Shown: positions 61,592 to 64,000 of the stretch, one piece after another
How the letters are laid out: every line of letters starts with the position of its first letter
How positions within the stretch are numbered: position 1 is the stretch's first letter
Assembly (NCBI RefSeq): GCF_007970185.1
Contig: NZ_CP042431.1
Coordinates: 310,001-374,000, forward strand
Direction of reading: 5' to 3'
Length of the DNA stretch: 64,000 nt
DNA from: Pseudobacter ginsenosidimutans
Lineage (GTDB): Bacteria; Bacteroidota; Bacteroidia; Chitinophagales; Chitinophagaceae
Program-made: the position numbers and the translations under genes
Notes under the pieces: generated by a model
Told to the model about the DNA's origin: nothing
The model's input: the letters and a program-made list of their open reading frames with translations, nothing else
Databases searched by the model: none

Positions 61592-61712
61592 CTCTTATCA
61601 AGAAAGGCAGAGGGAAATGGCCCGATGAAGCCTTGACAACCTATTCTTTACGACAGCAATGCCGGAAAGAAAAAGGTGCCAATACCACCGTTTAACAACG
61701 GACTGATAAGTC
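61592..61712 (+). promoter_or_regulatory. SAM-I riboswitch aptamer (S box)
   Basis: The S-box core is present in order: P1 5' strand CTTATC (61594-61599), AGGCAGAGGG, the conserved GGCCCGATGA with kink-turn partner AGCC, CAACC, then AAGGTGCCAAT (61673-61683) and the P1 3' strand GATAAG (61705-61710). It senses S-adenosylmethionine and here precedes methionine genes. The expression platform is the terminator that follows, making this an OFF switch: high SAM, termination. Confidence 0.92.
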
Positions 61713-61756: not shown

Positions 61757-61787
61757 CTCTTCCTGACTATCGGAAGAGTTTTTTTTT
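61757..61787 (+). terminator. SAM-riboswitch-controlled terminator
   Basis: Stem CTCTTCC and GGAAGAG around TGACTATC, then nine T. CTGACTATC (61763-61771) can instead pair with GATA-A-GTCAG (61705-61714), which includes the P1 3' strand. When SAM stabilises P1 the terminator forms; without SAM the antiterminator wins. The start of the regulated gene is 172 bases further on. Confidence 0.87.
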
Positions 61788-61959
61788 GCCCCTACCGGCA
61801 CGCTTGCCAGCTCCGGTATCTCCGCAAATCAACGCTCTCCGATCGTTCTCCACTCTTGATAATGGCTGTCGCAGAACACTGTTTATTCAACAATCATCAA
61901 CGATGGTGCTGACTGAAAAAACACAACAACAAAAGCACTCATCACAAAAACTGTTTATC

Positions 61960-63147
61960 ATGCAAGCGACAACACAACTCATTCACAGCATCCCCGTTGA
62001 TCCATTGACCGGAGCTGTATCCGTGCCCATCTATCAGACTTCCACCTTCGTGCAGGATGCACCGGGTGTGAATAAAGGGTACGACTATGCGCGCAGCGGT
62101 AATCCCACACGCGCCACACTGGAATCACTGATCGCGCAGCTCGAAGGCGGCGCAACCGGCCTCGCATTCGCATCAGGTCTCGCAGCCATCGACGCCGTTG
62201 CCAAACTTCTCAAAACAGGAGACGAGATCGTTGCTGTAGATGATATCTATGGCGGCGCCTACCGCCTCTTCACACAGGTGTATGAACAATTCGGTATCAA
62301 GATCAATTTTGTTGACACATCCGATCCCGCCAAAGTACTGGATGCCATCACACCAAAAACAAAACTGATCTGGCTGGAAACACCTACCAATCCCACTTTG
62401 AAGATCTCAGACATCGAAGCCATTGCGAAGATCGCCAAAGCAAGCAATGCCTGGCTTTGTGTTGACAATACTTTCGCTACTCCCGCCCTGCAACAACCGC
62501 TGTTGCTCGGAGCCGATATTGTTGTACACTCTGCCACAAAATATCTCGGAGGCCATAGCGATCTGATCGCCGGACTGGTAGTAACCAAGGATCCCGAGCT
62601 CGGCGCACGCATCAAATTCTATCAGAATGCAACCGGTAATATCCTCGGGCCATTCGACAGCTGGCTGGTGATCCGCGGCATCGAAACATTACACCTCCGC
62701 ATCCGCCAGCACAGTGAAAGCGCACTCGCAATTGCAAAATACCTGGAGCAGCATCCTGCAGTTGACAAAGTGTATTATCCCGGCCTCGCATCACATCCCA
62801 ATCACGCAACAGCTAAAAAGCAATCTAAAGGTTTTGGCGGTATCGTAAGCTTCTCACTGAAGCAGGACCATCTCGATGCAGCCACTGCACTGGTTACATC
62901 CACTAAATTATTCAAGCTGGCCGAAAGCCTCGGCGGCATCAAGAGCCTTGTGAGCCATCCGGCCAGCATGACGCATAAATCCATCCCCGCTGAAAAGCGC
63001 CAGGCGGCGGGTGTTTCAGACAGCCTCATCAGACTCAGTCTCGGACTCGAAGATGTTCAGGACCTGATCAGCGATCTCGATCAAGCATTCAATACCAGCG
63101 CTGCCAAACTCGAAAAATCAAATACTCATCAAGTAGCAGCCTGTTAA
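61960..63147 (+). CDS. Cystathionine gamma-synthase/O-acylhomoserine sulfhydrylase family PLP enzyme
   Basis: A 395-residue PLP enzyme of the Cys/Met metabolism family. PLP is bound at Lys194 ([13 protein letters not shown]); other motifs are [19 protein letters not shown] and [13 protein letters not shown]. It probably makes cystathionine or homocysteine from an O-acylhomoserine, although a gamma-lyase is possible; the subfamily cannot be settled by eye. The first ATG giving the family start ([19 protein letters not shown]) is 61960; the longer frame begins in the riboswitch terminator. It is the first gene under SAM control. Confidence 0.93.
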
Positions 63148-63159
63148 GTTTCAAATATT

Positions 63160-63600
63160 ATGAGCCAGGAAATAATCAAAACGTACAAAGACATCGACCG
63201 GACCATTTTGAAAGGCATCCCGAACCCTACAGACCAGGCGTACGAGATCAAGATCAAAATCCCCGAATTCACCTTCCTCGGTGTAAAAGAGCAACCGGAC
63301 TTTGCAGTGATCTACCTCACCTTCTATCCCGGAAAAAAAGTGATAGAACTGAAATCACTCAAACAATACATCTTCCAGCTGCGAAACATCGTTGCCTCCT
63401 ACGAGCGACTGATCAATATCATTTATGATGATCTCCAGGCAGCTTACGAACCAGCGCGAATGCGGCTCGTAATGATCTGCAATCCCAGAGGCGGCATCAG
63501 CTCCAAGCTGACTATCGACTCAGACTGGAAGATCCGCGGCGGAAAAGAAGCCTTCAATGACTGGAAACTCATTGAAGACGAATGGGAAGTAACCATGTAA
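63160..63600 (+). CDS. QueF-like T-fold protein lacking the catalytic cysteine
   Basis: A 146-residue homologue of QueF, the NADPH-dependent reductase that makes preQ1. The family frame is clear (GIPNPTDQAYEIKIKIPEFTFL; VIELKSLKQYIFQLRN; NPRGGIS). But the catalytic motif FTSLCPxTGQPD is changed to FTFLGVKEQPD: Cys (55 in Bacillus) is Gly41 and the loop is two residues shorter. The HGDFHED motif is IVASYER: His96 is Tyr81, although the substrate Glu97 is kept (Glu82). Asp of QPD is kept (Asp47). It cannot form the thioimide, so it must do something other than nitrile reduction. It lies 12 bases after the SAM-regulated enzyme and 39 bases before homoserine dehydrogenase, implying a methionine-linked role. 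Confidence 0.85.
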   Translation: MSQEIIKTYKDIDRTILKGIPNPTDQAYEIKIKIPEFTFLGVKEQPDFAVIYLTFYPGKKVIELKSLKQYIFQLRNIVASYERLINIIYDDLQAAYEPARMRLVMICNPRGGISSKLTIDSDWKIRGGKEAFNDWKLIEDEWEVTM

Positions 63601-63639: not shown

Positions 63640-64000
63640 ATGGACGCACACAAACAATTGACGATCGGCTTATTCGGTTTTGGCGTAGTGGGCGAAGGAC
63701 TTTACAAAGTGCTGCAGCAAACGCCTTCACTGAAAGCCAGCATAAAGAAGGTATGTATCAAGAACCCGGAAAAGAAACGCAACGCACCCGATTCTCTCTT
63801 CACAACAGATAAAGACGTTCTGCTCAATGATCCCGAGATCAATGTGATCGTGGAAGTGATCAATGAATCCGAGAATGCTTTCCATATCGTTTCCACTGCT
63901 CTGAAGAATGGAAAAGATGTTGTAAGCGCCAGCAAGAAAATGATTGCAGAACACCTGCCTGAATTGCTGGAACTGCAAAAACAAACAGACCGCTCCTTCC
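63640..64000 (+). CDS. Homoserine dehydrogenase, partial (runs off the window)
   Basis: The first 120 residues of homoserine dehydrogenase, which converts aspartate semialdehyde to homoserine for methionine and threonine. The N-terminal NAD(P) fold is TIGLFGFGVVGEGLYKVL, followed by VIVEVINE and GKDVVSASKKMIAEH, as in the family. It continues past the right edge, so catalytic and any ACT domains are unseen. Part of the SAM-led cluster. Confidence 0.88.
   Translation, partial: MDAHKQLTIGLFGFGVVGEGLYKVLQQTPSLKASIKKVCIKNPEKKRNAPDSLFTTDKDVLLNDPEINVIVEVINESENAFHIVSTALKNGKDVVSASKKMIAEHLPELLELQKQTDRSF

Follow-up and report, generated by a model that had tools for sequence, protein, structure and literature searches.

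In most organisms methionine and SAM receive their methyl group from 5-methyl-tetrahydrofolate (5-methyl-THF). MetF is called the sole known path to 5-methyl-THF in the excerpted part of an Acinetobacter metabolic model (PMC7857596), which also states that the flavin-free methylene-tetrahydrofolate reductase (MTHFR) of mycobacteria, Mfr, is not found by the Pfam model PF02219. According to the excerpt of PMC11094777, MTHFR, Mfr and Mer are all TIM barrels and share one mechanism, in which an acid protonates N10, an iminium forms at N5 and a hydride is delivered from FADH2, NADH or F420H2. The QueF family is defined in the extract of PMC5372742 by Cys55, Asp62 and Glu97 together with the motif E(S/L)K(S/A)hK(L/Y)(Y/F/W), which holds the NADPH-binding residues, and sequences without the catalytic Cys were left out of the family. 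The numbering of B. subtilis QueF used here follows PDB titles and this same extract. In the available passages of PMC5445326 and PMC5041015, QueF is mentioned only in a queuosine setting. Among the matches listed for the open-licence part of PMC, no methionine- or folate-linked QueF is named in titles or abstract starts; no paper on MTHFR together with QueF was found there, and we found no description in print of the protein discussed below. The comparison of many genomes presented here suggests that this protein, a QueF relative, is a previously unrecognised enzyme that makes 5-methyl-THF.

The protein, referred to as X, is encoded in a 64,000-nucleotide stretch of the Pseudobacter ginsenosidimutans genome (the window). 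It is a Cys-less QueF-family protein of 146 amino acids, read from an ATG start at 63160..63600 on the + strand. The operon leader contains a SAM (S-box) riboswitch, RF00162, at 61592..61712 (+), with a cmscan score of 71 bits against a gathering score of 44.4. It is followed by a probable expression-platform terminator at 61757..61787 (+), a 7-bp hairpin (CTCTTCC/GGAAGAG) and a run of T that was recognised by eye; a terminator pattern scan listed the hairpin stem on the - strand only and returned 4 sites where 3.1 were expected, which is weak alone. The first gene of the operon (61960..63147, +) encodes a PLP enzyme of the cystathionine gamma-synthase/lyase family and is called metB-like here. 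PF01053 matches it with 527.5 bits over 61942-63144, the ATG at 61960 is our choice of start, and all 25 NCBIfam models among the matches listed fall under their cut-offs, so that the name stands for the family and for a putative activity. A gap of 12 nt separates this gene from X, and another of 39 nt separates X from a homoserine dehydrogenase gene, hom, at 63640..64000 (+). The hom gene is matched by PF03447 and runs past the end of the window (L139:3641-4897); its full-length product scores 312.8 bits to PRK06349 (cut-off 205). The placement of X given in the first-pass annotation, between a gamma-synthase-type enzyme and homoserine dehydrogenase behind a SAM riboswitch, is thus borne out by the Cys_Met_Meta_PP, PF03447 and RF00162 matches. 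No SAM riboswitch was found in an Rfam scan of the 20 kb around metF of P. ginsenosidimutans.

The resemblance of X to QueF is not in doubt, as PF14489 matches it with 68.3 bits (cut-off 27.3). X also scores 93.8 bits to the NCBIfam equivalog model for QueF-II, TIGR03139, above the cut-off of 86.9, and this is a likely source of misnaming, since automatic annotation would make X a preQ1 synthase despite the missing Cys. Among solved structures the closest sequence match is the B. subtilis-type QueF. In the alignment Cys55 of B. subtilis QueF falls on Gly41 of X, as had been claimed, and Asp62 and Glu97 fall on Asp47 and Glu82, which are therefore kept. The adjoining loop has lost one residue and not two as first proposed. 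The active-site His, QueF His96, corresponds to Tyr81. The substitution is real, however it is not diagnostic of X, since 28 other QueF homologues from a search across the phylum have Phe (17), Tyr (10) or His (1) at this position; loss of the His was accordingly dropped as a distinguishing feature. X fits seven of the eight positions of the QueF motif, with the sequence E63-L-K-S-L-K-x-Y70. Among 97 aligned X sequences the third position is Lys in 88 and Arg in 9, and the seventh is Gln, His, Glu or Met in most, a position at which 14 of the 28 other homologues also depart from the motif, with Phe. Since the Asp, the Glu and most of the NADPH motif are retained and the Cys is gone, X has, as far as its sequence goes, the look of a reductase in which thioimide formation has been lost.

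An AlphaFold2 model was built from 55 X sequences and has a mean pLDDT of 80.7 and a pTM of 0.76; 12 residues are under pLDDT 50, mostly 135-141 and 144-146. Among the folds listed, the best Foldseek match of the model is B. subtilis QueF (Z 13.7, rmsd 3.3 over 125 residues). The next matches are QueF-Like (PDB 5jyx, Z 13.0), GTP cyclohydrolase I (FolE), FolB and PTPS, all of which are T-folds that bind purines or pterins. By sequence and by the predicted model X is itself a T-fold.

Relatives of X were collected in several ways. A scan of 84,980 species genomes yielded 163 relatives, of which 80 (L016-L095) were used; this 80-locus set is biased towards Gly because the scan relied on two search peptides, one of which included Gly41. 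A whole-protein search of the family of the window at E 0.001 detected X in 13 of 195 genomes, P. ginsenosidimutans included, at 80-100% identity, and all 13 members have Gly at the Cys position. Searches with an X profile at E 1e-25, a threshold set to leave out ordinary QueFs, placed X in 13 of 199 genomes of a Flavobacteriales-type order (that of G603) and in 4 of 79 genomes of a second order (that of G607). The window, the 80 loci and 16 loci from these two orders make up the 97 aligned rows, in which a few genomes occur twice and one of the 13 X genomes of the first order is not included. Gly41, Val42, Asp47, Glu63, Leu64, Lys68, Tyr70, Ser80, Tyr81, Glu82 and Arg83 are invariant in all 97 rows. 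The Cys position is thus Gly in every X row, compared with Cys in 27 of the 28 other homologues, and in a tree calculated from only 146 columns the 97 rows lie on one side of a single branch with a support of 100/99. The suggestion that the Cys-to-Gly form is a conserved clade therefore stands, and the Gly in all 13 family members and all 97 rows sets aside a sequencing error. Across 55 X sequences from several phyla 51 columns are invariant. Carriers include Bacteroidota, deltaproteobacterial and Syntrophorhabdus MAGs, Marinimicrobia, gammaproteobacterial MAGs and a Halanaerobiales MAG. X is under strong purifying selection, with a dN of 0.05 and a dS of 0.96 between the window and L018 and a dN of 0 and a dS of 0.20 between the window and L016; on this ground, and for the residues conserved across the clade, a pseudogene was rejected. 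A QueF-family protein of 169 amino acids at L119:1489-2001 (- strand; EFTTLGPVNRQPDF), with 108 bits to PF14489, also has Gly at the Cys position. It does not have the X signatures and, judged by its residues, is perhaps a second, independent Cys-less QueF type.

The neighbours of X vary among the 80 loci. Nineteen have metB and hom on both sides of X, four have hom only and two metB only, and three of these last six loci end near X. MetH, whole or as a half, lies beside X in 11 loci, the thymidylate synthase gene thyX adjoins it in 10, and a protein like methyl-THF:corrinoid methyltransferases stands beside it in three. In the order of G603 the arrangement metH1-X-metH2 was found in all 12 X loci examined (from 13 X genomes), and all four X loci of the order of G607 have MetH at a distance of no more than about 3.3 kb. 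In the 80-locus set, 49 loci have a methionine or folate C1 gene beside X, which agrees in part with the expectation that X always neighbours methionine genes; the "always" fails at the remaining 31, which include Marinilabiliaceae and several Flavobacteriales MAGs and have no tested methionine or C1 neighbour. Rfam searches detected a SAM riboswitch ahead of the genes in 13 of the 27 loci scanned out of the 80, among them a Halanaerobiales locus with the order SAM riboswitch-metH-X and a Chitinophagaceae locus with the riboswitch directly ahead of X, and at 12 of 12 metH1-X-metH2 loci in the order of G603. None was detected at the four X loci of the order of G607 (L140-L143), at the 11 scanned loci without a tested methionine or C1 neighbour, or in L041, L060 and L088.

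Some of the smaller groups have arrangements of their own. In the Syntrophorhabdia-type loci (L041-L050) X lies directly behind thyX; the 142-residue protein that precedes thyX in L041 has no match in Pfam or NCBIfam. In the Marinimicrobia loci L060, L073 and L079 X follows the stand-alone methyltransferase-like protein, which in L060 scores 125.7 bits to NF005719, under the cut-off of 259, and searches of these three genomes found no metF and no MetH activation domain. In the Marinilabiliaceae loci (L052-L091) X is often divergent from a TrmA/RlmD-type RNA methyltransferase and in some a MnmH-like protein with a rhodanese domain comes after it. metF, QueC and another QueF-family gene are all present in the seven Marinilabiliaceae-type genomes tested.

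The presence of metF was scored by PF02219, which does not see the mycobacterial Mfr, in a first set of 73 genomes. Within the Chitinophagaceae the model is above its cut-off in all 13 X carriers, P. ginsenosidimutans included, and in 21 of 22 non-carriers, the remaining one having a weak match. Outside this family the 38 X carriers are evenly divided, with PF02219 present in 19 and absent in 19. In the order of G603, where the 52 metF-less genomes are the complement of the 147 listed with PF02219, the model is missing from 11 of 13 genomes with X and from 41 of 186 without X (Fisher p 8e-6, relatedness ignored). The MetH domain PF02965 was detected in 9 of these 11 X-carrying genomes and in only 4 of the 41 X-free ones (p 9e-6, relatedness again ignored), so that X is present in 9 and absent in 4 of the 13 metF-less genomes that have a MetH domain. 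In those four MetH is at or near a contig end and a neighbour could be missing. The two X carriers without a PF02965 match have X flanked by metH1 and metH2, and of the eleven, ten have metH1-X-metH2 while in G637 MetH is 2 kb from X by coordinates. A count of MetH in 11 of 11 against 4 of 41 is not like for like, as the X-free genomes were judged by the domain alone. Among 17 further genomes with X and no metF, 12 have PF02965, and L055 has a MetH without it. Metagenome-assembled genomes make up most of the metF-less carriers that have a named record. The dihydrofolate reductase (DHFR) gene was used as a yardstick of completeness and is present in 24 of the 28 metF-less X carriers, which argues that these assemblies are not grossly incomplete.

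The order of G607 shows no clear association. A divergent MTHFR homologue occurs in two of its four X carriers, and when any PF02219 match is counted there is no association (absent in 2 of 4 with X and 21 of 75 without; p 0.58). A restriction to canonical metF, made post hoc, gives an absence in 4 of 4 against 22 of 75 (p 0.01). X-free relatives that bear metF were inspected in the order of G603. PF02965 is present in 9 of 9; metH1 and metH2 are adjacent in six, MetH is fused in two and in one metH2 alone was seen. A SAM riboswitch was detected in 5 of the 8 scanned, and in two of the nine (L150 and L152) metF lies directly after MetH, in both cases behind a SAM riboswitch.

It is highly probable that X belongs to methionine or C1-folate metabolism. 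On balance we consider it probable that X is a flavin-free, NAD(P)H-dependent T-fold methylene-tetrahydrofolate reductase, unrelated to the known TIM-barrel reductases. We also lean, slightly, towards placing it in a class of its own among the methylene-tetrahydropterin reductases, the first class outside the TIM barrels, which was derived from QueF by loss of the Cys and has displaced metF in several lineages. The substrate, the cofactor and the chemistry that follow are a proposal, inferred from the comparisons above. X would have arisen from a QueF-type ancestor and would convert 5,10-methylene-tetrahydrofolate (CH2-H4F) to 5-methyl-tetrahydrofolate, taking the hydride straight from NAD(P)H without a flavin. 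It would feed methionine synthase and, in several lineages, replace the absent MetF; in P. ginsenosidimutans, where metF is present, it may be a second, SAM-regulated source of methyl-folate.

The rings of preQ0 and CH2-H4F have a 2-amino-4-oxo-pyrimidine in common. Each also carries an exocyclic carbon peri to the carbonyl of this pyrimidine, the C7 nitrile carbon in preQ0 and the N5 methylene carbon in CH2-H4F. Glu82 may grip the pterin by its pyrimidine edge, in the way that Glu97 of QueF grips preQ0, and a pterin turned as preQ0 is in the QueF pocket would present its N5 methylene carbon to NADPH. Asp47, the counterpart of Asp62, could act as the acid, opening the imidazolidine ring to give the N5 iminium. 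The helix E63-L-K-S-L-K-x-Y70 would hold NAD(P)H, and the hydride would pass to the exocyclic N5=CH2+ carbon, placed where the nitrile carbon of preQ0 sits in QueF. The clade-specific C-terminal residues D120, D122, W123, R126-G-G, W135 and W142 may bind the p-aminobenzoyl-glutamate tail. Activation of a nitrile needs the Cys of QueF, but an iminium is already activated, and loss of the Cys is for this reason expected in X. If this is true, a nitrile reductase has become an iminium reductase through the loss of one residue and X provides a new fold for a central reaction. Some apparently metF-less genomes would then be methionine-competent, and calls of "preQ1 synthase" on X would be wrong in genomes without queuosine genes.

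The alternative that fares best, which we nevertheless think unlikely, is that X is a non-catalytic or differently catalytic partner in methionine synthesis and that the loss of metF has another cause. Such a partner could be a folate- or purine-sensing regulator, a scaffold for the two halves of MetH or an aid to its reactivation. The position of X between the MetH halves is consistent with this, particularly as the frames overlap by 11-20 nt in L077, L087 and L094 (with starts picked by script). So is the persistence of X alongside metF, since X and an MTHFR-family gene occur together in G779 and G797 of the order of G603, in Marinilabiliaceae, in Syntrophorhabdia-type genomes and in single others. 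The MTHFR of the Syntrophorhabdia-type carriers is of a divergent type in the two examined. In Marinoscillum (L094) X and metF share the order metH1-X-metH2-metF, and a divergent MTHFR-like protein of 309 amino acids (L094:12151-13080, - strand) is encoded convergent to these genes. Against this reading stand the NADPH motif, kept at seven of eight positions, and Asp47 and Glu82, conserved in every row; X also occurs with metB and hom, with ThyX or apart from all of these, and the frequency of the MetH domain in metF-less genomes with X, given above for the order of G603, is left unexplained. The first-pass annotation had offered a ligand sensor, a scaffold or a new enzyme of methionine or folate metabolism. 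The new enzyme fits best, whereas a sensor or scaffold accounts neither for the kept NADPH motif nor for the absent metF.

Reduction by X of a different folate or pterin, such as dihydrofolate or a dihydropterin, appears quite improbable. ThyX beside X in 10 loci, the lack of any DHFR match in the nine Syntrophorhabdia-type genomes and the pterin-binding proteins FolE, FolB and PTPS among the fold matches speak for such a reaction. Against it, DHFR is present in all 13 Chitinophagaceae carriers as well as in the metF-less carriers counted above, so X is no substitute for DHFR in the latter and a general DHFR substitute was rejected. A metB, hom or MetH neighbour is also more frequent than ThyX (36 of 80 loci against 10).

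A role in queuosine synthesis, whether the reduction of preQ0 or another 7-deazaguanine reaction, is very improbable. X does lie above the cut-off of TIGR03139 and keeps the Asp, the Glu and most of the QueF motif, but Gly replaces the thioimide-forming Cys throughout the clade. In P. ginsenosidimutans the question of a true queF elsewhere in the genome has a negative answer. There is no second QueF-family gene above the cut-off, and the sole other PF14489-like match (L002, 19.6 bits) is a protein that we take from its translation to be FolE-like and that was rejected as a queF for this reason and for its score. QueC likewise has no match in this genome at E 1e-5, which together with the missing second gene makes a preQ0 reductase unlikely there, and a QueF role of X in this organism was set aside. 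QueC was then compared in 80 genomes, 62 with X and 18 without, with scores over 200 bits counted as strong. Strong matches were found in 19 of the 62 carriers and in none of the 18 others. The remaining 43 carriers, P. ginsenosidimutans among them, have no match or only matches of 27-46 bits, which exceed the Pfam cut-off of 22 and are taken as other enzymes by score alone; these 43 would then have no preQ0 route. No strong QueC was found in the other 12 Chitinophagaceae carriers. Strong QueC is present in each of the 12 carriers with a second QueF-family gene, which speaks against a queuosine role of X. The other seven carriers with strong QueC are Syntrophorhabdia-type (7 of 9) and have no second QueF-family gene, which counts in favour of a queuosine role and makes preQ0 reduction by X less improbable in these genomes. 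Among 34 annotated proteins encoded next to X, a choice from many, there is no queuosine enzyme. The last alternative, a decaying queF copy left over in a methionine operon, has in its favour that pseudoenzymes typically show loss of the catalytic Cys, and we give it almost no weight in view of the invariant columns shared by several phyla, the strong purifying selection and operon membership that recurs in distant taxa.

The methyl-folate reductase proposed here can be compared with four described systems. Unimodular QueF (B. subtilis QueF, PDB 4f8b/4fgc, TIGR03139) has the same T-fold, the same Asp62 and Glu97, the RGGI sequence and most of the NADPH helix motif. X differs from it by the Gly in place of Cys, by the shortened loop, by the clade invariants S80, R83, P109, D120-x-D122-W123, R126-G-G, W135 and W142, and by the 43 of 62 carriers in which strong QueC is missing. 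QueF-Like, the archaeosine synthase (PDB 5jyx), offers the precedent of a QueF paralogue with a new reaction on the same fold. According to the excerpt of PMC5485725, however, ammonia takes the place that NADPH has in QueF and the thioimide Cys is kept, whereas X keeps the NADPH motif and has Gly for this Cys in all 97 rows. MTHFR/MetF (PF02219, TIGR00676) has the proposed reaction and the place in the pathway in common with X, and X shares with metF of L150 and L152 a place next to metH in operons led by a SAM riboswitch. MetF is a TIM barrel with FAD (PMC11094777, in the excerpt available) and X a predicted T-fold; no sequence relation was seen, and X has no match to PF02219 at E 1. Mfr, the flavin-free mycobacterial MTHFR, resembles X in the proposed direct transfer of a hydride from NAD(P)H without a flavin, but it is a TIM barrel that, in the same excerpt of PMC11094777, has been identified in mycobacteria only, while X would carry out this transfer on a T-fold.
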